NCBI GenBank assembly: GCA_013359135.1
Contig: JABWCN010000011.1
Location: forward strand, 1 to 64,000
Direction of reading: 5' to 3'
From: Pseudobdellovibrionaceae bacterium
GTDB taxonomy: Bacteria; Bdellovibrionota; Bdellovibrionia; Bdellovibrionales; Bdellovibrionaceae
Length of the DNA stretch: 64,000 nt
The notes under the pieces are model-generated. The model was not told the DNA's origin. It ran no database searches and saw only the letters and a list, made by a program, of their open reading frames with translations. Each line of letters begins with the position of its first letter. Within the stretch, counting starts at the first letter, position 1. A program made the translations under genes and the position numbers. Shown here piece by piece: positions 7,015 through 19,466 of this stretch.

Positions 7015-8229
7015 GTGAAAAAAAGATACTTGTTGCTTCTTGCAGTTTTGATGCAAACACTTGGCTGTAGCAAATCGTCAGACAGTAACAACGCTGGAAT
7101 CGATAACAGCAAATTAATAACTTCAACATTCACTGAAGTGAATACTCAAGCCGCAAAGGTAGCTAAAATTGCAGATGCTGATTTAACTACATCTAATACT
7201 AGCTCTTTGGGTATAGGGATTCTTTCAGCTCCGAACTTTGGTAACTTTTGGTCAACAACTGATGCAACCAATGATGTTTATGACAATAGTGGTTACATTA
7301 CCATCAAAAAATATATGGGTTACCAGCTTAATCCAGACGCTAAAAGAACTAATGGATCTGATTTAAATGTGTTTGGAAGAATGAAAAATGCATTAGCCAT
7401 TTTTTGTGCTGTCGGCGTAGCGACCCAAGAGGCAGGAGTGAGCATTGATAGTGCCGGATACCCTACCAATGGCCAGCACACAGTTACTTTCACAGCCGCT
7501 TTAAAGGCAAGTATGAACACTACTTGTGGAATCAGCCCTGACAATATTCCAGACGGTACAGCAATGAAACTCACTGTAGAAGATTCTGGAGGAAGTCTTT
7601 ATGTAAAAAAATTCTCGTTTGATGTTTTCAGGCAAGTATATTTTGTAAAGATGACTTCAGATGAAATAAATATTACCACAGCAGAAACAACTGATTCTGG
7701 TGGAGTATCTAGAACCATGGTTGCATGGAATAAGAGCACTAAGGTTATGAGAGTAGAGTACAACTCTTTACAAGGAACAGCCAGTGCTAGCAGTGCTGGA
7801 GTTTATCTTTATAGACTTTATTATGATGAGACAAACGATGATGGACAAATCCTTTCAACTGAGGGAGGTTCAAGTGACTCGTCTTTAAAATCTATTCGTT
7901 ATGTTCTAGCTGGAAAACCAAGTACTGGAGATGCTTTTTCTATATCGATGATTCAAGATCAGGATACAACAACAAACCACTTAAATAATGGAGCTTTAAC
8001 TGAAGCTTGTGTTTCCTCGTCAAATGGTAATTTGATTACAGATGGAAGTCGATGTGCTGAAACATCTAGCAGAACTGCCGGGGCAGCGATTAACCAAAGT
8101 TCCATTGTAACCCTGCTTGGTAACTATTACTCTGATAGAACCAATACAGCGTGGGGAACTGCAGATGCTAACACTACAATTAGTTGGAGCACTAAAACAG
8201 AAATGTTATCTGTAGCTTCTGAACCATAA
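7015..8229 (+). CDS. Predicted lipoprotein, function unknown
   Basis: The 404-residue protein has a lipoprotein signal: MKKRYLLLLAV is followed by TLGC, with Cys18 as the lipidated residue, and then a Ser/Asn-rich linker. The remainder is Ser/Thr/Gly-rich, beta-strand-like and has scattered Cys residues that could pair in the periplasm or at the cell surface. I do not recognise the family. The start is GTG at 7015 with GGAG at 7006-7009. The ATG two bases earlier (7013) is out of frame and is immediately followed by a stop. A hairpin terminator follows at 8271-8305. Confidence 0.75.
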   Translation: MKKRYLLLLAVLMQTLGCSKSSDSNNAGIDNSKLITSTFTEVNTQAAKVAKIADADLTTSNTSSLGIGILSAPNFGNFWSTTDATNDVYDNSGYITIKKYMGYQLNPDAKRTNGSDLNVFGRMKNALAIFCAVGVATQEAGVSIDSAGYPTNGQHTVTFTAALKASMNTTCGISPDNIPDGTAMKLTVEDSGGSLYVKKFSFDVFRQVYFVKMTSDEINITTAETTDSGGVSRTMVAWNKSTKVMRVEYNSLQGTASASSAGVYLYRLYYDETNDDGQILSTEGGSSDSSLKSIRYVLAGKPSTGDAFSISMIQDQDTTTNHLNNGALTEACVSSSNGNLITDGSRCAETSSRTAGAAINQSSIVTLLGNYYSDRTNTAWGTADANTTISWSTKTEMLSVASEP

Positions 8230-8373: not shown

Positions 8374-9495
8374 CTATTGGCACTTTGAATCACCGATATA
8401 ATACTGAGAACCAATTTCATCAAGCCATTCTTCAAGATCTTTTTTGGTCCAATACTCATATCCTGTTTTAGACAACACTTGCGCATCAGGCAAATCAGAA
8501 ATCTTAAGCAAATTTTTACTGGTTATTTTTTTACTTAAAATAGAAAAACTTAGTATTTTTGTATAACCTTTTTTTAATCTTTCTACATCACTCTTGTACC
8601 TTCGAGTTAAACTCTCTAGTATTTTTTGTCTCTCAGATTTTCTTTGCTCCAAGGAAACAAAATTTAAATTTTCATTTTCTTTAACAACTAAAAGATTATG
8701 TAAAGACAGTGTATCAATATCCATCTTAGCCCATTCTTTAACTGTTACTAAGTCATTCTTAAATAATTCATTTATCAGTTTAATCTCTTTAAGTGTATAA
8801 TCTATCTCTTTATAACGACACAATTTTCTTAGAATATAAATTTGAACAATATAGGAATCAGGCTCTAATATTTTTGAAAAATAAGGTGACCTTTGCGAGG
8901 CAATAGCACCAATAGCAATGTCAATTTTATTAGCATAAAAAGCCGTCCACATTTTTTCAAATTGTGTCTGTCGTAAATTATAGTAACTTCTTGGAAAAAA
9001 TTCATATATTTTTAAAGCTTCAGAATAGTTTTTTAGGGCAAAAAAACAACGAGCTATTTGGTGAAGAATATAAAAATAAACTTGTTGATTATCGACAGAA
9101 ACTTTTTGAGGATATACTTTCCTGATAAGTTGAGCCGCCTTTTGAAAAGCGGCAATAGCTGCTTGAAAGTTTTTATCAGTTTCTAGCTGCTCGCCCTCGG
9201 CTATTAATTTATTAACTTGAACTTCTTCTGAGTCTTGGTAGTTTTTCTTTACAGACATTTTTTCTAATGTAAATATAATATCATAACCTATTCCAGGATT
9301 ATGATAAATTAGATTCCTAATTTGTCTCCATTGAGAAAAAGAAACTCCCTTTTTTAAAGTATTTTTAAGTAAAATCCGCGCACCAAGAAAGTCTTTATTA
9401 GATAGCATTTTTTTTACTTTTACTGATACGTCTGACTCAGCAAAGGACGAAGAAGTAAAAAACAAAGTTAAAACAGCAAAAAAAATGGATTTCAT
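8374..9495 (-). CDS. Exported TPR-like repeat protein, function unknown
   Basis: The 373-residue protein has a Sec signal peptide (hydrophobic core FFAVLTLFFTSSSFAES, cleavage near residue 19). The mature part is helical with repeat pairs of TPR character, for example NFQAAIAAFQKAAQLI at about 110-125 and NYSEALKIYEFFPRS at about 155-169. A periplasmic protein-protein scaffold is the likely role. The C-terminus (LSKTGYEYWTKKDLEEWL) carries no recognised enzyme motif. It is divergent from the Glt-like operon with about 134 bases between starts, so co-regulation is possible. Confidence 0.7.
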   Translation of the reverse strand: MKSIFFAVLTLFFTSSSFAESDVSVKVKKMLSNKDFLGARILLKNTLKKGVSFSQWRQIRNLIYHNPGIGYDIIFTLEKMSVKKNYQDSEEVQVNKLIAEGEQLETDKNFQAAIAAFQKAAQLIRKVYPQKVSVDNQQVYFYILHQIARCFFALKNYSEALKIYEFFPRSYYNLRQTQFEKMWTAFYANKIDIAIGAIASQRSPYFSKILEPDSYIVQIYILRKLCRYKEIDYTLKEIKLINELFKNDLVTVKEWAKMDIDTLSLHNLLVVKENENLNFVSLEQRKSERQKILESLTRRYKSDVERLKKGYTKILSFSILSKKITSKNLLKISDLPDAQVLSKTGYEYWTKKDLEEWLDEIGSQYYIGDSKCQ

Positions 9496-9629
9496 TCTAC
9501 TAAAAAATTAGGTCTAAACTCTTTCAAAGTAAACGTAAATATGTCATTTATCCCTAAGTCTAGTTTAAAAAAAAATATACAGAGTTCCTAACCTTAAGTG
9601 TATATTAAAGCGTATTTAGGGGTGTTATC

Positions 9630-10355
9630 ATGAGAATTGGAAAAAAAATGTGGTTTCAAATATTAGCATTATTTTTTGCATTGAACCAACCTACCTTTTC
9701 TCAAGAGAATTCAACAACTGCAACCCCACAACAAAATCAAAAAATAGATAATAAGTTACTACAACAATTTTACAGAGATGATTTGTCGCCGATTTTTGAA
9801 GACATCGTTTCCGTTCAAAAAAAAGCTAAACAGAAGTCTGGAAAAATATTAATTTATCCCTTTTATTCTATTGATTTCTCTGACACTCCCTACACAATGT
9901 GGGCACCAAATCTGAACTTAGGATATGCTTTTGGTGAATTCATAGAAGTTTACCTTAACCTAGCCTCAGGATTTTCTAATTCTGAAAGATTTATTTCAAA
10001 AAAAGTAAAAGAACTCACTTTGGAAACGGGAGACAAAGCTGAGATTAAAATTCAAAAAGCAAAAATGCAAGTTGGAATAGAGCTTAATTGGAGTCCTGTT
10101 TATGGTAAAGACTCTTGGGGACCTTATGGAATTATTCGTAGTGATACTTTCTTGAATTTTGGTGCCTATAACATAGCTTATGAAAAAGATAGTGGACTTA
10201 AATTTAAAATGGGAATTGGAAAAACTTTTTATCTTAGTAAAACTTTTAACCTTAGACTTGTTGGCTCTTTATCCTCTATCCAATTTATAAATGATACTGA
10301 AAAAGTAAGCAATATCGTTGGACTTTTTGAGGGCGGCTTTGTTTTTTATCTTTAA
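9630..10355 (+). CDS. Outer-membrane beta-barrel-type protein, first gene of the Glt-like operon
   Basis: The 241-residue protein has an N-terminal signal (hydrophobic to about residue 20, ending near PTFSQE), a Gln/Asn-rich linker, and then alternating amphipathic strands. It ends in a terminal aromatic strand (GLFEGGFVFYL) typical of outer-membrane proteins inserted by Bam. Short outer-membrane barrel proteins of this kind accompany the ExbB/ExbD motors in Myxococcus glt and nfs loci (family knowledge). It is followed 32 bases later by the ExbB-like gene, which has its own SD (AAAAGGA). Assignment to a particular Glt protein (GltA, B or H) is not possible by eye. Confidence 0.68.
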   Translation: MRIGKKMWFQILALFFALNQPTFSQENSTTATPQQNQKIDNKLLQQFYRDDLSPIFEDIVSVQKKAKQKSGKILIYPFYSIDFSDTPYTMWAPNLNLGYAFGEFIEVYLNLASGFSNSERFISKKVKELTLETGDKAEIKIQKAKMQVGIELNWSPVYGKDSWGPYGIIRSDTFLNFGAYNIAYEKDSGLKFKMGIGKTFYLSKTFNLRLVGSLSSIQFINDTEKVSNIVGLFEGGFVFYL

Positions 10356-10387
10356 TTAATTTTCATTTTTAAAAGGAACTAACGCTT

Positions 10388-11032
10388 ATGGATTTTATCA
10401 TTATTTTGAAAAAGTACTTAAATGAAGCTGGCTTAAGTGCCTATCTAACAATTGGCAATGCTCTATTTCTAATTTATCTTGGAATTGAACGTTTCAATTA
10501 TCTTTTCTTAAGGATTAAAACGGTTTCACCAGAAGCTTGGAATGAAATTAATAAGAAAATCTTGCAGCGTGATTACAACTCTGTTTTACAAATTTGTAAT
10601 ATGACTAAAGACAGTCCTCAAATCGAAGTTATCAAGGCTGGATTGATGTCTTTGGATAGTGGTCGAGAAGCAATGAAATCGGCTCTTGGAGCGGCACTGG
10701 TTAATATAACAAAGAATTGTGAAAAAAAAGTAAACTTGATTGGGTTGATTGCCAGCGTAGCTACATTATTAGGCCTTCTTGGTACTATTACGGGACTTAT
10801 CTCAACATTTAAAGCCATAGAGGTTGCCGATGCTGCCTCTAAGGCCGCTAAGCTTTCAAGTGGTATCTCTGAAGCGATGTACTCTACTGCAGCAGGACTA
10901 AGTGTTGGTGTAGCGGCGATGGTAGTCCATGCTCTTATTACCACAAAAATTGAAGAAATTACTAATGAGGCTCAGTATACAGGCTATACCTTTGCGACTT
11001 TAGTTGAAAAGTCTGAACGTGGTGAAGATTAA
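10388..11032 (+). CDS. MotA/TolQ/ExbB proton channel family protein (AglR-like)
   Basis: The 214-residue protein has three TM segments (about residues 15-33, 115-137, 160-185). It also has the family's cytoplasmic loop and the glycine-rich second TM block LIGLIASVATLLGLLGTITG, with STAAGLSVGVAAM in the third, which is the ExbB/TolQ/MotA signature region. Such proteins form a pentameric inner-membrane stator that couples proton flow to movement of a partner. In Myxococcus the equivalent AglR works with AglQ and AglS to power gliding. Its stop overlaps the next start (TAATG), so it is translationally coupled to the first ExbD gene. Confidence 0.9.
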   Translation: MDFIIILKKYLNEAGLSAYLTIGNALFLIYLGIERFNYLFLRIKTVSPEAWNEINKKILQRDYNSVLQICNMTKDSPQIEVIKAGLMSLDSGREAMKSALGAALVNITKNCEKKVNLIGLIASVATLLGLLGTITGLISTFKAIEVADAASKAAKLSSGISEAMYSTAAGLSVGVAAMVVHALITTKIEEITNEAQYTGYTFATLVEKSERGED

Positions 11033-11535
11033 TGGAAGCAATTAGCAAAGGAAAGAAAGCACCACATGTTGATTTAGTGCCCATTTTGGATGCTCTTACC
11101 GTTGTTATTTTCTTTTTAGTTTTGTCAGTCAGTTTTTCAGAATATGTAAAGTTGACAGTTCCCCCCACTCAAATCACTGACTCACCACCTTCAACAAATG
11201 AAAGTACTCCACCCATTTCACCTAAATTAATTGTAAAAGAGGTTGGATCTTTGATTCACGTAGGCATACTGTGGTCAGGAAAAACACCTGGAAGTTTTTC
11301 AGAAAAAATAGTTAAATCGTCGAATCTCAATCAAGATCAAATCTATTTAACTGTTGAATCCTTAACCAAAAAATTTAAAGAAAAATTCCCAAATGAAAAT
11401 GAACTACAAATAGGTTTAACAGCAGATCTCAAATTCAAACAATTTATAACTGTAACAGATGCTGCAAAAAAAAGCTTTAAAGATATTGTTATGATGTCTT
11501 ACGAAGATGCAGAAAGAGAGACATGGACTTTTTAA
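11032..11535 (+). CDS. ExbD/TolR family protein 1 (AglQ/AglS-like)
   Basis: The 167-residue protein has a short cytoplasmic N-terminus and a single TM at about residues 17-36, with the conserved proton-carrying Asp at residue 20 (LVPILDALTVV). The C-terminal periplasmic domain begins with a Pro/Thr-rich linker. The family inserts a dimer in the ExbB pentamer and transmits torque or force to the envelope. It overlaps the ExbB gene by one base and the second ExbD gene by 13 bases. Confidence 0.88.
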   Translation: MEAISKGKKAPHVDLVPILDALTVVIFFLVLSVSFSEYVKLTVPPTQITDSPPSTNESTPPISPKLIVKEVGSLIHVGILWSGKTPGSFSEKIVKSSNLNQDQIYLTVESLTKKFKEKFPNENELQIGLTADLKFKQFITVTDAAKKSFKDIVMMSYEDAERETWTF

Positions 11536-11993
11536 GTAATGGTAAAAAGAAATACTCTTTGGCAACTTTACAGTTAGCACCTATTATTGATGTCTTTATC
11601 ATTATCATTATTTTCTTTATTCTTGGAAGTTTTTCGAATGGAGTTGCAATTGAAGTTCCCTCCCTATTAAAGCTACCAACAAGTGATCTCTCTGAAAAAG
11701 TTGATATCTCGCCTGAAGTAATCTTATTCAAAGAAAAAGTGCAATTCAAGTTTATTGAAGAAAAAGAATTAGCTTTTTCTTCAGTTAGAAACAACGAAGT
11801 CTTGATTAATAAAGTTAAAACTTATCTTCAGAAGCTTGATGCTAGACTTAAAATAAATGGGACGTCAGTTAATCTCATCATCGATGAGCAAACTGACTTT
11901 AAATCAGTCTATGATATTAGTACTTTCTTGCGCCAACTTGGGTTTGAAAATTTATCTTTTATCACTCTAAAAGAATACAGAAAGGAGAAATAG
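11523..11993 (+). CDS. ExbD/TolR family protein 2 (AglS/AglQ-like)
   Basis: The 156-residue protein has a TM at about residues 18-38 with the key Asp at residue 23 (LAPIIDVFIIIII), then a periplasmic alpha/beta domain. It differs clearly in sequence from the preceding ExbD, so this is an old duplication rather than a recent copy. The Myxococcus Agl motor likewise pairs one TolQ-like protein with two TolR-like proteins. It overlaps the preceding gene by 13 bases and abuts the next gene (TAGATG). Confidence 0.88.
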   Translation: MDFLSNGKKKYSLATLQLAPIIDVFIIIIIFFILGSFSNGVAIEVPSLLKLPTSDLSEKVDISPEVILFKEKVQFKFIEEKELAFSSVRNNEVLINKVKTYLQKLDARLKINGTSVNLIIDEQTDFKSVYDISTFLRQLGFENLSFITLKEYRKEK

Positions 11994-12344
11994 ATGCTAC
12001 ATAAATTTAAGGTTTACTTACTTTTGCTATTGCTTTTTTCACTACAAACAAGAGTTAATGCACAAAATCCAGGATCTCAAGAGCCCAATACGGTAACGCC
12101 AATATCAACCTCTACAGGATCTAAGTCAGTAACGGCAACATTACCTACAGAACCCGCAAACTCAAATACAAATAGAGAATTTAATTTCGAAGGAGATGTT
12201 ATCGAAGCTCAAAAAAACAAACCTATTCTGATATTAGATTCTCAAGATGTGGGACTTGATATTGAAGATATCATTTACAATAGAACTAATTTTGACGAAT
12301 ATTTTCAAATTGAAAAAAACAACAAGCCCCAATTTGCTAAATGA
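11994..12344 (+). CDS. Small exported protein of the Glt-like operon, function unknown
   Basis: The 116-residue protein has a clear signal peptide (YLLLLLLFSLQTRVNAQ, cleavage near residue 24), a Pro/Thr/Ser-rich low-complexity stretch to about residue 65, and a short acidic C-terminal region (DSQDVGLDIEDIIYNRTNFD). I recognise no domain. It starts immediately after the upstream stop and overlaps the FHA gene by four bases (ATGA), so it is part of the same translational unit. A periplasmic adaptor linking the ExbD proteins to the outer-membrane protein is a possible role, by position only. Confidence 0.7.
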   Translation: MLHKFKVYLLLLLLFSLQTRVNAQNPGSQEPNTVTPISTSTGSKSVTATLPTEPANSNTNREFNFEGDVIEAQKNKPILILDSQDVGLDIEDIIYNRTNFDEYFQIEKNNKPQFAK

Positions 12345-14017
12345 AAACTCTAGAAGTCTATAAAAAAGATCAACTTATAGAAAAAATTCCACTAACAAAG
12401 GATACTATTCTAATTGGTAGATCTCCAGTATGTGATATTGTTCTTCGAAAAAAAAACATCAAACAAGTACACTACTCTCTGCAAAAAATTTCTGCGAGTG
12501 ATGATGATTTATGGACTTTATTTGAAAATGAACCTGCAAATGAAAATCATACAGGGATTATGCTAGGCAAAGAAAAAACCTCTCTTGGGGAACTTGATTT
12601 TTGTCTATCTGAAGACAGTCTCCAGCAGACCACTTTTAAAAAAGGAGGTCTAGTTCAAAGTCTATCTCAAGAGAAAAAAGAAACAAAATTAGCTCAAAAT
12701 TTATTGCTTGAAGTGATTTCTATAAATAATGAATTAAACTCAATTAGAAATATTTTTCATTTTAGCAAGGCCAATCACCGCTATAAATGTTTTCCTAATG
12801 ACGTAAATCTTTTTTTAATGTTTTCTTCTAACTTTCAATTAAGTCTGTACGGACTTAAAAATAGCGACAAAAAAAACTCAAATTATAAATTTTTTATTAA
12901 TAATTTTGATGTAACTGAAAAAGTTTTGGCAAATTCAAAGTTCGATTTTATTTATACCGATCAAATTTTATTTCAAACTAAAGAGATTGATTACTTAATA
13001 CGCTTCGTAAAAAAAGAAAATTTCGTTGTCACAAAAAAATCATTCTTCAACGATGACCTCATTAAAATTCTGATACTAGTTTTTATGACCGTGCTTGGGT
13101 TATACATTTTAGTTAAAACCAATCCACCTCCAAAGCCTAAAATAGAATCTAGTAAGGCTCGAATTATAAAAATTGCTAAAGAAAAAAAAGCTGAACCTAT
13201 CCCAATGGTTATGACCGTAAGTGAACTTCCATCTCCACCCCCTATTAAAGTAGAAGCTAAGATTATACCTCAAAAGCCAATACAAGCTAAGATAGACTTA
13301 GAGAATAAAAAAGAAGAAAAAGTTATTCCGAAAGAAATTCCCTCTCCTAAAATTCAACCAATTACAGAAAAACCAAAGTCCAAAACATCAAGCGGCCTAC
13401 TAGGTCTTTTGAGGAAAAATCAAAAAAACCCTCAAAAACATGAGGATTCACTTGCTGATAGAGCACTACAAAAAGTTGCTGAAAATGACTCTTCAAATCT
13501 TCCTACAGTCCGATTAGATGACTCTGTTGTTAAGACAACTTCATCAAACTCTTCTCAAAGTGGGCTTTCATCCGTTGAAAGTAGCATTGATAACGAAATA
13601 CAAACAGGACAAATTGTTTTAGAAAAAAGTAAAAATAAGTTTTCTGATTTTAAAAACAATAACTTAGGTAAATCTTTACTTAGAAGCCTTGAAAGTGGGC
13701 AAAATGGAGAACTTAATATCAGCGGTTCTCTAACTAAAGAATCTGTAAGAAATAGATTGAAATTACATAACAATCAATTTTTAGGTTGCTATCAAAATGC
13801 ACTTATCAAGAAAAGCACTATTGAAGGAGAAATTATTTTTTCATGGATTATCAATAATGCTGGTAAAGTAACAAGTCTTACACTTGTTTCATCTTCTATT
13901 AATGATCGAAGCTTCGAATCTTGTATAGAAGAAACATTAGAAAATATCTCTTTTGAAGTATCAAAAGATGGTAAAGCAACAAATGTGACTTATCCTATTC
14001 GTTTTAAAGGTGGCTAG
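12341..14017 (+). CDS. FHA domain - TM - TonB/AgmX(PglI) C-terminal domain protein (GltG-like)
   Basis: The 558-residue protein starts with an FHA domain (about residues 1-90) in which GRSPVCD at 26-32 matches the phosphothreonine-binding loop region. One TM segment lies at about 242-262, followed by a long Pro/Lys-rich periplasmic stretch typical of TonB. The C-terminal domain, about 470-558, has the AgmX/PglI pattern: LGCYQNAL, GEIIFSWIINNAGKV, FESCIEETLENISF and TYPIRFK, with a likely disulfide pair. Myxococcus GltG has this FHA-TM-TonB layout and links a cytoplasmic phospho-signal to the envelope motor. It overlaps the preceding gene by four bases, and the next gene follows after three. 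This is the most diagnostic member of the operon. Confidence 0.85.
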   Translation: MKTLEVYKKDQLIEKIPLTKDTILIGRSPVCDIVLRKKNIKQVHYSLQKISASDDDLWTLFENEPANENHTGIMLGKEKTSLGELDFCLSEDSLQQTTFKKGGLVQSLSQEKKETKLAQNLLLEVISINNELNSIRNIFHFSKANHRYKCFPNDVNLFLMFSSNFQLSLYGLKNSDKKNSNYKFFINNFDVTEKVLANSKFDFIYTDQILFQTKEIDYLIRFVKKENFVVTKKSFFNDDLIKILILVFMTVLGLYILVKTNPPPKPKIESSKARIIKIAKEKKAEPIPMVMTVSELPSPPPIKVEAKIIPQKPIQAKIDLENKKEEKVIPKEIPSPKIQPITEKPKSKTSSGLLGLLRKNQKNPQKHEDSLADRALQKVAENDSSNLPTVRLDDSVVKTTSSNSSQSGLSSVESSIDNEIQTGQIVLEKSKNKFSDFKNNNLGKSLLRSLESGQNGELNISGSLTKESVRNRLKLHNNQFLGCYQNALIKKSTIEGEIIFSWIINNAGKVTSLTLVSSSINDRSFESCIEETLENISFEVSKDGKATNVTYPIRFKGG

Positions 14018-14020
14018 CAA

Positions 14021-17000
14021 ATGATAGATCATTTAAAAAAATCTCTTTTAATTGCTTTTGTACTTTGCTTTTTACACAATAAATCATGGTCTGTAATTTC
14101 AAACGACATTGATAAACTTGGTGAGAGCAGCAAAATTCTATCTAAAGAAGAAAAACCAGATCTTAAAAGTTTAAAAAATAAAGATGACAATGCTCTAGAT
14201 GCTAATTTTGAGGTTGACGATAGTGACGAATCTTTACTTGCTATAGAAGCTTTACTACAGAGTGATATTAACGAAGAAAAAAGAAACTCTGTTCTAATTC
14301 AAAAGGCTATGATAGAGCTTGAACAAGGCTATAAAAAAAAGAAAATTAAGACAGAAAAGAAAGAAAATATTGATTCTTTTTTCAAAAAAGCTAAGGCTAG
14401 TGTTGACCAAGTCATCTTTAATGGCAAAATAAATCAAAATAAGCTTGCATATGCTTATTTCATTAAAGCTTTAGTTAATAACGAACTTGAAGAATTTACG
14501 GAAAAAAAACAAAACTTAGAAAAATCTTTTAAGATAAGCCCAGCATCAAAACAAAGTTCGCAAATAGCTATGGCATTGGGTGAAATTTATTTTGAAGAAA
14601 ATAACTATAAACAAGCTTATGAGTATTTTAATATTAAATATAAAGAACTTTCTGCTAGTCAGAAGATTATTTCTGACTACAAGTCAGCGTGGTGTTTATT
14701 ACTTCAATCAAAATATGACCAAGCCGTTAATTCATTTCTAAAAATAATTGAAAAAAATGAAGGAAGCAGCCTAAAGAATGATGCCATAAGAGATTTAGCC
14801 TACGCGATGACTCTGTTTAAAAAAGAAAATGAAATGATTCAATTTGCTGCTAAAAACCTTAAGTCTCAAAACCAAACTGATTTTTTATATTTCACACTTA
14901 GGTATTTCTATTTTAGCCCTAAAAAGGAGTTTAAATCATTGATTTTTAAAACCCTTTTAAATCAAAGACTTACTGCAGAAAAAAGAATTGCGATTCTTTC
15001 ACTTCATCTGAACTTCAAACGAGATATTTATCCAAATCTGAACTATAAAGTGGCTCTTAATTTTACAATGAAAAATCTAAGTGAAAATAGTATTTATCCA
15101 GAATCTCAACTCTTTCAAACTTCAGCAAAAGAAATTGAGTCTATTAATGAGTTTTTTATTAAACAATACCTCGATGTCATTTTAAAAAAATTGCCAAATA
15201 AGGCCAATTTAACAAAAGAACAACTTCTTAATGAGATGTTGTTTCATATTAAATTTCACTTAAGTACATTCCCTCAGTCTAGCTTTAAATACCAACTTGT
15301 AAAACTAGGTATTGATGCGGAGACAGAAACTAAAAATGGTAATTTATTTTTTTTCAAAGAATTACTTGAAAAAGAAAAATTGATCAATGATGAAGTTAAA
15401 TCTCTTATTTGTAAAATTGATTACGAACTTTTACAAACTAAACTAAAAGAAACAGCATCAACCACAGAGATTCTTGAAAATCATATTGAATCTATCAATA
15501 AACTATTAGAAAAACATACAAGGCTACAAGAATGTAAATTTTTAAGCTCCAGTGATGAAATTTTTTTAAAAGACAAACTATTTCAGCTCTATTTTTCAAT
15601 AAAAGACTACCAAAATGCGGCTAAAACTATTGATGAAATATATCAGAACAACAAGACAGAAAATATTTTATATAATAGATACCTAATTTATTTTAATCTT
15701 GGAATGTTTGAAAAAATTACGAGTGAAGTTGAAACTCATAAAAAAGTAACAAAACCTGAGATTAAAAAAATTATCCGAGAGTCTTTCTTGAAGCTTGCTC
15801 AAGGAGCTGGCACTCAAAAAGAAAACTTTAATTTTTCTAATTATGAAAGGAATATTGTTTCCTTTATAAAAACTTCAGATGATAAGGCTAAGATAACTTC
15901 AGCTTATCTTGACTACTTTGAAAAAATTCAAACTAGTAAAGATTCAAATTATTTAGCTAAAGTTTGGCAAGGAATACCTTTTTCAGAAAAAAATGATGCT
16001 TTGTTTATTCCCTTCAGAGAAAGATTAATTAACAAGCTCCTAATTTCTAAAGAGTTCGACAAAGTAAATCTTTTTATAGATCCAGTTAACAGCGAATATT
16101 TAAACTTTTTATACTTTTTTAATAAACAACAAAATAAAAACTATGAAATTGATTTCAATAGCAGCTCATTTCAAAAACTTTCAAATGCCTATAAGAATTA
16201 TTTCGTTCAATTAAACTCTATGACAGCGCCTCAAAGTGTTAATAACTGGCTTAAGAACAAAAAATCGCTATCACCCAGTGAAGAGCAACTACTTTTTTTA
16301 ACATTTAAACTTATTCAAAACACTGAAGATCCACAAATTGAAGATAGTCTTAAAGCTAAAATGAGAACTATTAAGTTTGAAAGTCACTTTAAAAATAAGT
16401 TTTTAGAAAGTATCTTATCAAAATTTGACTTTACTAAGACGACTTTAAGTTTTGATGCGTATAATAAAAAAGCTGAACAACTAATAAAACTTTCTTCATC
16501 AGCCAGGCAAGAAATTTCTAAAAGTATTAGTAAGTATTCTTTGAATCAGAGAGTTGAAATATTTAGAAAAGCAGAAATAGCAGAGAGAGGAACCTATCAG
16601 TTTATTATTGAATCTCCAGCTCCAAAAGAAATGACGGCTGCTGAAGTTCAAGACTATAAAAAGCAAATAAGTGAACTGGCTCACGATTATCTGAAAAAAG
16701 CGGATGAGTATAAGGTACTCTATGAAAAACTTGAACAAGAAATAAAACATGAAGCAAAAAATAAAGATCTTAATAGACCACCGCGAATAAAGTCTTTAGA
16801 ATGGTTAACTTCCAACAAAGAAATTACTGAGTATTCTTTAACTGAGATTCACAATAACATGGGATTACGTTTTGCTATTGGTTATCTTGATTTTTTAAAA
16901 CTACAAGGAAAAATTGAAGAAAACCTTTTTTGGAAAATTAAAATTTATCTTTATCTAAAAAGTGATCCCAAACAAACAATATTAATTCACTTACTTTGGC

Positions 17001-17065
17001 AAGATCTTAAAGCAAATAAACAAACAAGTTTAATTGAGACTTGGATTAAAAACAGTGACAACTAA
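14021..17065 (+). CDS. Large exported helical repeat (TPR-like) protein, 1014 residues (GltD/AgmU-like by context)
   Basis: A signal peptide (hydrophobic to about residue 24) is followed by almost entirely helical, Lys/Glu-rich sequence. TPR-type pairs are visible, for example ALGEIYFEENNYKQAYEYFN (about 185-204) and SAWCLLLQSKYDQAVNSFLK (about 222-241), with more in the middle. The protein should be periplasmic and act as a scaffold. In Myxococcus the glt cluster encodes the large TPR-type periplasmic protein GltD/AgmU (about 1200 residues), so position and type agree, but sequence homology is not shown here. It starts three bases after the FHA-TonB gene and overlaps the next. Confidence 0.78.
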   Translation: MIDHLKKSLLIAFVLCFLHNKSWSVISNDIDKLGESSKILSKEEKPDLKSLKNKDDNALDANFEVDDSDESLLAIEALLQSDINEEKRNSVLIQKAMIELEQGYKKKKIKTEKKENIDSFFKKAKASVDQVIFNGKINQNKLAYAYFIKALVNNELEEFTEKKQNLEKSFKISPASKQSSQIAMALGEIYFEENNYKQAYEYFNIKYKELSASQKIISDYKSAWCLLLQSKYDQAVNSFLKIIEKNEGSSLKNDAIRDLAYAMTLFKKENEMIQFAAKNLKSQNQTDFLYFTLRYFYFSPKKEFKSLIFKTLLNQRLTAEKRIAILSLHLNFKRDIYPNLNYKVALNFTMKNLSENSIYPESQLFQTSAKEIESINEFFIKQYLDVILKKLPNKANLTKEQLLNEMLFHIKFHLSTFPQSSFKYQLVKLGIDAETETKNGNLFFFKELLEKEKLINDEVKSLICKIDYELLQTKLKETASTTEILENHIESINKLLEKHTRLQECKFLSSSDEIFLKDKLFQLYFSIKDYQNAAKTIDEIYQNNKTENILYNRYLIYFNLGMFEKITSEVETHKKVTKPEIKKIIRESFLKLAQGAGTQKENFNFSNYERNIVSFIKTSDDKAKITSAYLDYFEKIQTSKDSNYLAKVWQGIPFSEKNDALFIPFRERLINKLLISKEFDKVNLFIDPVNSEYLNFLYFFNKQQNKNYEIDFNSSSFQKLSNAYKNYFVQLNSMTAPQSVNNWLKNKKSLSPSEEQLLFLTFKLIQNTEDPQIEDSLKAKMRTIKFESHFKNKFLESILSKFDFTKTTLSFDAYNKKAEQLIKLSSSARQEISKSISKYSLNQRVEIFRKAEIAERGTYQFIIESPAPKEMTAAEVQDYKKQISELAHDYLKKADEYKVLYEKLEQEIKHEAKNKDLNRPPRIKSLEWLTSNKEITEYSLTEIHNNMGLRFAIGYLDFLKLQGKIEENLFWKIKIYLYLKSDPKQTILIHLLWQDLKANKQTSLIETWIKNSDN

Positions 17066-18608
17066 TCAGCCTTCGAACTCAAACAATAAAGTGGAAAAGC
17101 CAGTCATAAAGAAAAAACTGCCTATACTACAGGATAGTCTTAAGTACATTCTAGTAAAGTCCTCCACTTCTATTTACGGACCTATGAATTTGAGTGAGGT
17201 TATCGACCATTTGTATTCAAAAAAATTTTCTATTTTAGATGAAATAACGATTCCACTTTTTCAGTGGAATTATATCAGGGAAAATCAGCAAGTTATTGAA
17301 CTTTTTCGAAACAAATCTCTTCACGAGGAAGAACTTGAAAAACAAAAAAAACAAAAAGAAATTCAATTAAAGCAACAGCAACTTAAAAACCAGTATGAAA
17401 TACAATCCAAGAAGTCGTTATTTAATTTTTTTACTATCACTTTTATTTTTATAGGACTAATGATTATAGGTTACTTTGTCCGAAAAAAAGTAAAAATTCA
17501 TAATTTTCAGGTTCTAGAGGCTTCAATTATTAGTAAGCAAATTGAACTTGAACTTTACACAGAAGCTTTTGAGCTATTCCAAAAGGCAAAAAGTAGAAAT
17601 CCCGAAGTAGCCCAAATGGAAGCTTTTTTTATACCTTTTTTAGAAAACAATCAGCCTTCATTGCACTCTCTTTACAGCGACTTCAAAAAGGATAATACCA
17701 ATCCTATATTAGTACTTAATCTAGCTTCTCGTCTTATTGTTGATGCCGATTCAAGTCTTCCCCAAGAAGACAAAAACTCGTTCCTGACTGTATTTAACAA
17801 TCTCGAGTTTGAAAAAGCAGAAGAACAAGGTCTTTATCGATTACTAAAAAGTTTGTGGTACTTAAAAGAAAATGTCTTAATCACAGAAGAAGCTAGTGAA
17901 ATTCTTGAAAAGAATACTTTATTTATAAATACTCACTGGTTTTTAAAAAATGAGTTACTTCTAGTTAATTTGTTGATTAAGTCAAGCTTTCAAGAACTGG
18001 AACTTACAGACGTGAATCAATTTATAAATACTATTCCATTTCTTTCATCTGATTTCACACATAATCCTAATATTTTATGGAAACTGACAGAATGGAAGCA
18101 TTTAAACAGTTTGTGTCAGAATTCTTCTGCTTTGAAGCTAAAAAACGATATTCCAACAGAAACTCAAGAAACTTTAAAAAATCAAATTCAATTCATTTGT
18201 TTTATTCAAAATAAAGATTTAACGGAGGCAAAATCCCTACTACAAAAAAATAACCTTGCTCAAAGCCAACACGCTAATTATTTTCTTTTTCTACTTAATT
18301 CATTAGATCCATTGAAGAGCCTTAACCTAGAAAAACAACAATCACTTTTAAAAGAATATATTGGCTATCATTACTTACTTATTAAAAATATTTCAGCAGA
18401 AAATCTTAAAAACTATGAAAAAGAAAATTCTCTTAATGATGAATTTTTAACTTCTTATATAAAAATAAAAACTACAGACAATTTCGATTTTAATTCTTCT
18501 AAAGAACCATCATTTAGACCTCTGAAACTAAAGAAATTTTGCAATGAGCTTTCCAAAGAAGCAATTAAAAACTACCCTTGGGTTTACCAAAAGTATTGCA
18601 AACTTTAG
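17055..18608 (+). CDS. GYF-like domain - TM - periplasmic repeat protein, last gene of the Glt-like operon
   Basis: The frame is open from a TTG at 17034. I prefer the GTG at 17055 (517 residues), which overlaps the preceding stop by 11 bases instead of 32; neither start has a strong SD. Near the N-terminus a GYF_2-like domain is visible (YILVKSSTSIYGPMNLSEV to QWNYIRENQQV), followed by a Gln/Lys coiled coil. One TM segment (FFTITFIFIGLMIIGYFV) leads into about 350 helical residues outside. A cytoplasmic GYF domain before a TM is also found in Myxococcus GltJ/AgmX (family knowledge). Here the TonB C-terminal domain is on the separate FHA protein instead. Conservation of the GYF aromatic core is partial. 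Confidence 0.72.
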   Translation: MTTNQPSNSNNKVEKPVIKKKLPILQDSLKYILVKSSTSIYGPMNLSEVIDHLYSKKFSILDEITIPLFQWNYIRENQQVIELFRNKSLHEEELEKQKKQKEIQLKQQQLKNQYEIQSKKSLFNFFTITFIFIGLMIIGYFVRKKVKIHNFQVLEASIISKQIELELYTEAFELFQKAKSRNPEVAQMEAFFIPFLENNQPSLHSLYSDFKKDNTNPILVLNLASRLIVDADSSLPQEDKNSFLTVFNNLEFEKAEEQGLYRLLKSLWYLKENVLITEEASEILEKNTLFINTHWFLKNELLLVNLLIKSSFQELELTDVNQFINTIPFLSSDFTHNPNILWKLTEWKHLNSLCQNSSALKLKNDIPTETQETLKNQIQFICFIQNKDLTEAKSLLQKNNLAQSQHANYFLFLLNSLDPLKSLNLEKQQSLLKEYIGYHYLLIKNISAENLKNYEKENSLNDEFLTSYIKIKTTDNFDFNSSKEPSFRPLKLKKFCNELSKEAIKNYPWVYQKYCKL

Positions 18609-18650: not shown

Positions 18651-19466
18651 CTATTTTTTTAAGGTAAAAAAGTCGATTGTAAGGCAATAAAGCGTTTCTT
18701 CTTTAGAATCCTTTACTATGGAATTGTACTCTTCTATTTGTTTAACCAAGTTTGATTTAATTTTTAACACATCCTCTAGTGAAACACTCACTACTGAAGA
18801 ATAATGAAGCTCTTTTTCTGATACAGATTCTAGAGATTTTAAAGCTTGTAAACGCCAATTCGTATGGTGCTTTTGAATCATAGCTTCTTCAGAACCTATA
18901 TGCATCCTTGTCGTTCCTAACTTAAAATGCTCTTTTTCTTGCTCAATAAGCCCACGACTTGAAAGAAACTGCAAAACTTTTGAAACTTTACCTTCTGAAA
19001 TTTGTAAAAAATTGGAAATAGCTTTCAAGTTTTGCAATTGAGGAATAGTGATTGCCATATGGACAGCTGCATAGGTCCACTCACTGAAGTAAAGACTGTG
19101 ATCTTCGGAGGAAAGAGTTTCTTTGATATTGAATCTTTTTTTTAAGTTTAAATATCTTTGCTGTTGTTCTTCCAATAGTTCATTAAAATATTTTTTTAGA
19201 TCTATAGAACCAGCCCTAGCAAACTCTACTAATGTTAGGAAAAATTGGGCTTCTTCTTTATTATGAAAAAGAATTTTATTTAAAGAATGTGCCTGCTCTA
19301 AGCTAAAATGAGCTCGACCATTCAGAACTTGTGAAACGTAGGCTGTTTGACAACCAGCTACCCTAGCCAACTCCGCACGAAACCCACGACCACGGTGAGG
19401 CCGTCCAACTTCCACAAACTCTAAATATTTTTTATAATCTTTAAAATCAAAAATAGATTTATTCAT
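18651..19466 (-). CDS. TIGR02147 family protein, HTH-type regulator
   Basis: The 271-residue protein opens with the family's N-terminal signature (FDFKDYKKYLEF) followed by a Cro/XRE-like helix-turn-helix around GCQTAYVSQVLNGRAHFS at about residues 37-55. The middle part contains YFSEWTYAAVHMAI, and a winged-helix-like ISEGKVSKVLQFLSSRGLIE lies at about 171-190. Families of this type are expanded in Fibrobacter and Bdellovibrio relatives and often lie next to genes for exported proteins. Here it is divergent from a secreted protein gene 136 bases away, with ATTACAAAGTAAT at 19490-19502 between them as a candidate operator. It is likely a transcription regulator of its neighbours; the signal is unknown. 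Confidence 0.85.
   Translation of the reverse strand: MNKSIFDFKDYKKYLEFVEVGRPHRGRGFRAELARVAGCQTAYVSQVLNGRAHFSLEQAHSLNKILFHNKEEAQFFLTLVEFARAGSIDLKKYFNELLEEQQQRYLNLKKRFNIKETLSSEDHSLYFSEWTYAAVHMAITIPQLQNLKAISNFLQISEGKVSKVLQFLSSRGLIEQEKEHFKLGTTRMHIGSEEAMIQKHHTNWRLQALKSLESVSEKELHYSSVVSVSLEDVLKIKSNLVKQIEEYNSIVKDSKEETLYCLTIDFFTLKK

Follow-up and report, generated by a model that had tools for sequence, protein, structure and literature searches.

The AglRQS-Glt gliding machine of Myxococcus xanthus and the related gene clusters of Bdellovibrio are the closest described counterparts of the system that we report here. In Myxococcus a single AglRQS motor, driven by the proton-motive force, serves both the Glt gliding and the Nfs spore-coat outputs (PMC3858216), the contact between AglR and GltG and the importance of residue D28 of AglQ have been demonstrated (PMC3169522, PMC3858216), and GltA and GltB are mutually stabilising, while CglF is also named GltF (PMC4488436). 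Bdellovibrio bacteriovorus contains four agl-like paralogous clusters (PMC3169522, PMC2797640), of which Bd0828-0838 represents the type that is held to be the best candidate for gliding (PMC3169522). Expression differs among these clusters: that of Bd0411-0421 peaks early in the bdelloplast and that of Bd2368-2377 at exit (PMC12546842), and further differences have been described (PMC2797640). We analysed a window of 64,000 nucleotides (positions 1 to 64,000 of contig JABWCN010000011.1, assembly GCA_013359135.1) of a Pseudobdellovibrionaceae bacterium, in which a compact locus between positions 8374 and 18608 encodes AglR-, AglQ-, AglS- and Glt-type proteins. We consider it likely that the locus specifies an additional trans-envelope force machine of the AglRQS-Glt type, which would have a specialised task at the surface or in the envelope, alongside a fuller cluster in the same genome.

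Direct reading of the open reading frames (ORFs) confirmed the eight consecutive genes that had been described in the original prediction: they follow one another on the + strand between 9630 and 18608 and mostly overlap, with successive gaps (overlaps negative) of 32 bp, following the barrel gene, and then -1, -13, 0, -4, 3 and -32 bp. The one-operon form proposed at that time misses a divergent gltC-like gene. In the relatives a TPR gene is found between the second ExbD gene and the large TPR gene, a position at which the series in the window has no gene; the divergent gene is homologous to that TPR gene, so that the machine spans 8374-18608 and comprises nine genes (Table 1).

The motor subunits connect the locus most clearly to the Agl/Glt family. 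The product of the first motor gene matches ExbB (PF01618) with 86.5 bits and is 43-56% identical to the ExbBs of a compact eight-gene module, with the order barrel-R-Q-S-GltC-GltD-CglF-GltG, that we defined in this analysis and refer to as set 2. In the ExbB tree it was recovered within the set-2 clade (support 1.0), beside subgroup A (0.854), and the five Tol/Exb-like ExbB paralogues of the genome formed a separate clade (0.988). The TolQ model, with a cut-off of 221 bits, gave 58.9 bits for the ExbB in the window versus 117-223 bits for these paralogues. An ordinary Tol or Ton energiser was rejected on the basis of the tree and the low TolQ score; the original prediction had singled out a grouping of ExbB/ExbD with Tol or siderophore Ton systems as an outcome that would speak against a motor of the Agl/Glt kind, and the ExbB was found in the AglR-type clade instead. 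The threonines T126, T133 and T167 of the ExbB are invariant across 14 sequences. The two ExbDs match PF02472 with 33.6 and 36.5 bits, respectively, and both keep the transmembrane aspartate (PILD in the first and PIID in the second), as do the set-2 pairs and unlike the clusters of the type found at L040 in the same genome. In the latter (L040:10327-10866) and its relatives L148, L174, L190 and L199 the first ExbD has Ala, Ser or Asn in place of the aspartate, and the same loss was seen in the AglR-type clusters L143, L152, L155, L162 and L194; as judged from these residues, only one ExbD per pair seems able to carry protons in such clusters.

The remaining parts were named by homology, because profiles of the window type find the proteins of the fuller cluster: they detect all parts of that cluster except its GltE-type protein. 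The barrel matches the OMP_myx_plus model TIGR04565 (E 1.7e-11, under the model cut-off) and is 34-48% identical to the set-2 barrels. The divergent gene product is similar to that of the gene following the second ExbD in the paralogous operon that this genome also carries (phmmer, 1e-74) and matches the NCBIfam GltC model NF033756 with 29.9 bits (E 2.4e-7), far from the equivalog cut-off of 450. The GltG-type transducer, which is 20-26% identical to its set-2 counterparts, matches NF033768 (myxo_SS_tail, the AgmX/PglI tail) with 68.8 bits and the model of the GltG C-terminus with 56.5 bits (E 1.8e-15; equivalog cut-off 650). As these scores are far under the cut-offs, GltG and GltC should be read as family assignments rather than as orthology. 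The architecture of the GltG-type protein comprises: an FHA-like domain (1-91), a second beta domain (~121-224), a transmembrane helix (~239-260), a disordered Pro/Lys-rich linker (~261-455) and a TonB-like tail (466-555). Its predicted fold matches FHA domains in the PDB (best E 2e-5); the matches to TonB C-terminal domains are weaker (E 2e-3 to 1e-2), and a sequence search of the solved structures with this protein returned no match. Because YscD-like domains of type III secretion systems are also among the matches of the FHA-like fold, we make no claim of phospho-binding.

The large GltD-type protein, which has a signal peptide by eye and weak TPR matches, was connected to the GltD-type protein of the set-2 operon in the same genome (phmmer, 1e-68), and the set-2 GltD-type profile in turn matches, in the fuller cluster, a TPR protein of 1054 aa (4e-19). 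For the small exported protein the similarity to its own set-2 member (phmmer, 4e-9) suggests a CglF type; members of this family match the NCBIfam CglF model NF033764 (41 bits for set 1 and 26.4 bits for set 2 of the nearest relative, G003), and the copy in the window has no direct NCBIfam match. The GltD and CglF assignments are thus best taken as transitive, via homologues. The domains called originally (ExbB, two ExbDs, AgmX/PglI tail, FHA and TonB-like) hold by Pfam, NCBIfam and predicted fold, and so does the proposed kinship with Agl/Glt, with the FHA-TonB protein related to GltG and the repeat protein related to GltD via the fuller cluster.

The search for conservation in other Bdellovibrionota, suggested with the original prediction, recovered homologous operons. 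The set-2 gene order is present in 10 genera. The GltG-type protein of the module was matched in 18 of the 144 genomes of the class, that of the window included (one match, in G125, is partial and may represent a different type), whilst the barrel of the module was matched in 32 of the 369 genomes of the phylum; the named records are metagenome genomes of Bdellovibrionaceae, Bdellovibrionales and Oligoflexia. The set-2 operon of the same genome is located at C90:104.8-113.7 kb (L039), and other set-2 loci are L052-L068 and L122-L134. All nine genes of the window machine, except the GYF gene, have homologues that cluster in set 2 of the 10 genera (phmmer), and since homologous operons are conserved in other genera a chance grouping can be excluded. 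The window locus shares with set 2 its compactness and the homologous barrel, AglR, AglQ, AglS, GltC, GltD, CglF and GltG types. It differs in an inverted gltC, in the position of CglF-GltG ahead of GltD and in an added GYF-TM-TPR gene (TM, transmembrane). By gene order it is therefore a rearranged relative of set 2, and this arrangement was found in no other genome examined.

The trees of the barrel (0.999) and of GltD (0.992) likewise placed the window copy with subgroup A. In the concatenated tree (FastTree) the window copy branched basally to subgroup A (0.968) when the distant outgroup was left out and just outside set 2 when it was included, a shift that is probably caused by long-branch attraction. 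A recent duplication of the set-2 operon in the same genome was rejected, as this set-2 operon groups with its counterpart in the nearest species (support 1.0); the window copy branches outside the whole genus. In five other genomes of the genus no orthologue of the window copy was found, and their matches represent the other set-2 operon. Both an old duplication that was kept in one lineage and a transfer from an unsampled relative fit these data. A separate case of set-2 multiplication is provided by Bdellovibrio sp. 336R (G008:C45 and C87; L057, L058; records L129, L134), with two set-2 copies that both have the usual order.

The added gene encodes a 524-aa protein with a GYF-like domain by motif (~36-100) and one transmembrane helix (128-146), followed by a C-terminal part that is predicted to fold into TPR-like helical repeats. 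The motif, the transmembrane helix and the repeats described in the original prediction were thus recovered and a Pfam GYF_2 match was not: the GYF_2 search of the genome matched at three other places and did not report this protein, and the matches shown for its family did not include GYF_2. The label GYF-like therefore reflects our reading of a conserved N-terminal motif, W-L-V-S-S...G-P...D-E-R...W...I-R-E, which has a GYF-like look. The protein has no NCBIfam match, and a Foldseek search with its full model gave no match at E <= 0.001; what it returned were generic TPR-like folds. With phmmer it was connected to proteins encoded next to mlaD (E 1e-8 to 1e-21; identity about 20%). Such homologues of ~590 aa occur order-wide (92 of 141 genomes matched, many via the N-terminal domain alone) and, in the loci that were read, have a similar gene neighbourhood that adjoins mlaE-mlaF-mlaD; the neighbours were confirmed as MlaD and MlaE in the genome of the window and as MlaD in one of two complete genomes (g6) discussed below. 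Examples of these uncharacterised proteins are encoded at L092:8969-10732, L093:8053-9825 and L097:8535-10313. A second copy of the window type was not found in the order. A relation to GltJ was rejected, given the absence of NCBIfam matches and the relatives beside mlaD; the gene is a diverged relative of the order-wide mlaD-linked gene, and this distribution suggests that it may have been recruited into the operon.

The machine is not the only one of its kind in the genome. The fuller cluster (C90, ~117-129 kb) encodes proteins that match the NCBIfam models of GltC (176 bits), GltE (64), CglF (41) and GltG (234), two OMP_myx_plus barrels above the cut-off, the 1054-aa TPR protein and an ExbB-ExbD-ExbD set. 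It lies directly beside set 2 (L202, G000:C90:113-130 kb), between genes that, by sequence and family knowledge, we take to be kdsD-kdsC-like and lptC-lptB-rpoN-like; genes of gliding type and of the LPS pathway are interleaved there. MglA is also encoded in the genome (1e-87 to MglA chains in the PDB). The window machine is therefore an additional machine and not a minimal replacement, and the idea of a reduced, simpler substitute lacking MglA had to be abandoned. The ExbB profile recovered five AglR-type ExbBs in this genome (355, 325, 143, 116 and 116 bits), four in G003 and four in each of the two complete g6 genomes, with none above 145 bits in the latter (best 144). The g6 genomes probably represent Bdellovibrio, as their number of AglR-type ExbBs equals the four agl-like clusters published for B. 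bacteriovorus, and because their best match is 144 bits against 325-355 bits for the window and set 2, the window type probably lies outside the four known Bdellovibrio clusters. Another AglR-type cluster of the same genome (L040:3478-13356, G000:C72) includes an adhesin-like lipoprotein of the MIDAS family (NF052240, 70.9 bits; CglD-like) and a GYF_2-PilZ protein, both encoded directly upstream of its ExbB; by its gene content, a motor adjoins a possible surface adhesin and a possible cyclic di-GMP sensor there.

Compared to the M. xanthus AglRQS-GltA-K gliding machine, the window machine has the R, Q, S, A/B, C, D, F and G types, but no recognised GltE, H, I, J or K and one barrel instead of two, and its GltG and GltC proteins fall short of the full-length equivalog scores. 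It has all types of the core defined by Luciano et al. 2011 (AglR, Q, S, GltC, D, E, G) except GltE, and is a variant of this core complex and not a full member. The tonB/agl clusters of Bdellovibrio (Bd0412-0420, Bd0828-0838, Bd1473-1483 and Bd2368-2377) similarly combine an AglRQS-type motor with GltG- and TPR-type partners, in several sets per genome. The Nfs machine has, by its published description, paralogous A/B, C and G parts, but is driven by the AglRQS motor of gliding (PMC3858216). Tol-Pal and TonB-ExbBD share the ExbB/ExbD motor and the TonB-like C-terminal tail; they differ from the window machine, which has two different ExbDs, an FHA-like cytoplasmic domain, large TPR proteins and an ExbB from another clade.

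From the gene content, homology, motor residues, phylogenetic placement and rearrangement described above we infer how the machine may assemble, transfer force and be employed. Protons would move between a ring of five AglR-type subunits and a dimer of the AglQ/AglS type via the two conserved ExbD aspartates. The resulting motion would be passed on to the GltG-type protein at its membrane helix, and the flexible linker and TonB-like tail of this protein could span the periplasm. The GltD-, GltC- and CglF-type proteins would form a periplasmic scaffold and the GltA/B-type barrel the outer-membrane end, the FHA-like domain may be a cytoplasmic docking site for a regulator, and the GYF-like-TM-TPR protein, which as far as tested has no homology to GltE or GltJ, may act as a second inner-membrane adaptor. 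The proposal that the proton drive reaches the TPR proteins and the barrel by way of GltG is made by analogy with the AglR-GltG contact (PMC3169522) and the movement of Glt and Nfs by the proton-motive force (PMC3858216). Since the clusters of B. bacteriovorus peak at different stages of predation, a division of labour between paralogous machines is supported, and a specialised, possibly stage-specific task is the most economical reading.

Several points weigh against an additional specialised force machine: no surface adhesin gene was recognised beside the operon, a histidine such as has been reported for TonB/TolA transducers is absent from the GltG-type membrane helix, none of the operon proteins matches NCBIfam GltE, the second barrel is missing (GltA and GltB of Myxococcus stabilise one another; PMC4488436), and the scores for GltG (56.5/650 bits) and GltC (29.9/450 bits) lie far from the equivalog cut-offs. 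As one genome carries the arrangement, the copy might also be a degenerating or neutral duplicate with no present function, in keeping with its long branch and with its location in a variable stretch, the flanking blocks of which relatives carry on different contigs; the nine open frames, the overlapping genes and the retained ExbD aspartates and ExbB threonines make this quite improbable.

It was originally suggested that the machine serves gliding, and the parts are the same as those of the Myxococcus gliding machine, while Bdellovibrio glides by a motor described as unidentified (PMC13104615). That the window encodes the gliding motor of the organism, or one of several redundant ones, is nevertheless unlikely: the fuller cluster resembles the best gliding candidate type, Bd0828-0838 (PMC3169522), and the window copy lacks GltE and the second barrel and, as far as was found, has no orthologue in five other genomes of the genus. 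The force-transducing part of the suggestion agrees with the reading that we find most likely; for gliding by this operon we found no specific evidence, and that role is more likely to belong to the fuller cluster. Transport of a polysaccharide along the cell surface has a precedent in Nfs, which uses Glt-paralogous parts and the AglRQS drive to move the spore-coat polymer (PMC3858216), but among the ORFs read near the operon we noticed none for polysaccharide export or synthesis, and we regard this as a possibility of low probability. Still less probable is a role in outer-membrane lipid handling, with the proton-driven machine working with Mla-type transport via the GYF-TPR protein: the added gene is related to one beside mlaE-mlaF-mlaD and the fuller cluster lies between kdsD-kdsC-like and lptC-lptB-like genes, but the argument is one of gene neighbourhood and of ~20% identity to an mlaD-linked protein of uncharacterised function. 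In a lineage-specific variant that we consider doubtful, an Agl/Glt-type proton motor would have recruited the diverged Mla-linked GYF-TPR protein and thereby coupled envelope force to the handling of outer-membrane lipids or the surface layer.

Table 1. Features of the Agl/Glt-type locus, with positions in the window.
Feature	Position	Strand	Basis
gltC-like, 373-aa periplasmic TPR protein	8374..9495	-	phmmer to paralogous operon; NCBIfam GltC NF033756
Divergent intergenic region, 134 bp, presumed promoter region	9496..9629	.	direct reading
Outer-membrane beta-barrel, GltA/GltB type	9630..10355	+	TIGR04565 OMP_myx_plus; set-2 barrels
AglR-type ExbB/TolQ channel subunit	10388..11032	+	PF01618; set-2 ExbB identity; tree
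AglQ-type ExbD, first copy	11032..11535	+	PF02472; TM segment comparison
AglS-type ExbD, second copy	11523..11993	+	PF02472; TM segment comparison
Small exported protein, CglF (=GltF) family by transitivity	11994..12344	+	phmmer to own set-2 member
GltG-type transducer, 558 aa, FHA-TM-TonB	12341..14017	+	NF033768; GltG C-terminus; predicted structure
GltD-type periplasmic TPR protein, 1014 aa	14021..17065	+	phmmer to own set-2 GltD-type protein; weak TPR matches
GYF-like-TM-TPR-like helical repeat protein, 524 aa	17034..18608	+	phmmer to mlaD-neighbour proteins; predicted fold

The start of the last gene is uncertain (TTG at 17034, with a ribosome site that is not clear). Promoter positions in the divergent region are putative, as the promoter scan gave a count near that of shuffled sequence and not above chance. 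The terminator scan yielded 7 candidates versus 3.6 +/- 2.1 in shuffled sequence, with none on the + strand just past the operon end, and no matches to RNA families or PHROGs were obtained. The operon lies within a ~15 kb stretch (roughly 6.2-21.5 kb) that is flanked by two genus-conserved blocks; in G003 and G001 these occupy separate contigs, which does not fix the borders of an insertion. Its G+C content is 30%, against ~34% around it, and the set-2 genes of the same genome span 30-37%. Inspection by eye of the ORFs read on both sides revealed no mobile element. Upstream of the machine a 404-aa predicted lipoprotein is encoded (7015-8229, +), which among the 30 genomes searched has a close relative in G003 only (59%), elsewhere in that genome and near genes that by reading resemble an IS91-type element. 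A regulator of the TIGR02147 family (18651-19466, -) is convergent with the operon end.

Paralogous agl/glt sets are already known in Bdellovibrio; the module type apparently lies outside these known sets, the arrangement is new and the added component is unexpected. Bacteria of this kind carry several such machines. The compact module is set apart by its patchy occurrence in Bdellovibrionota and its seeming absence from the two probable Bdellovibrio genomes that were checked, and with all its parts in about 9 kb it makes a convenient small system for reconstitution. The copy in the window illustrates that the module is open to rearrangement and extension, and points to the order-wide mlaD-adjoining protein as a possible partner of such motors.

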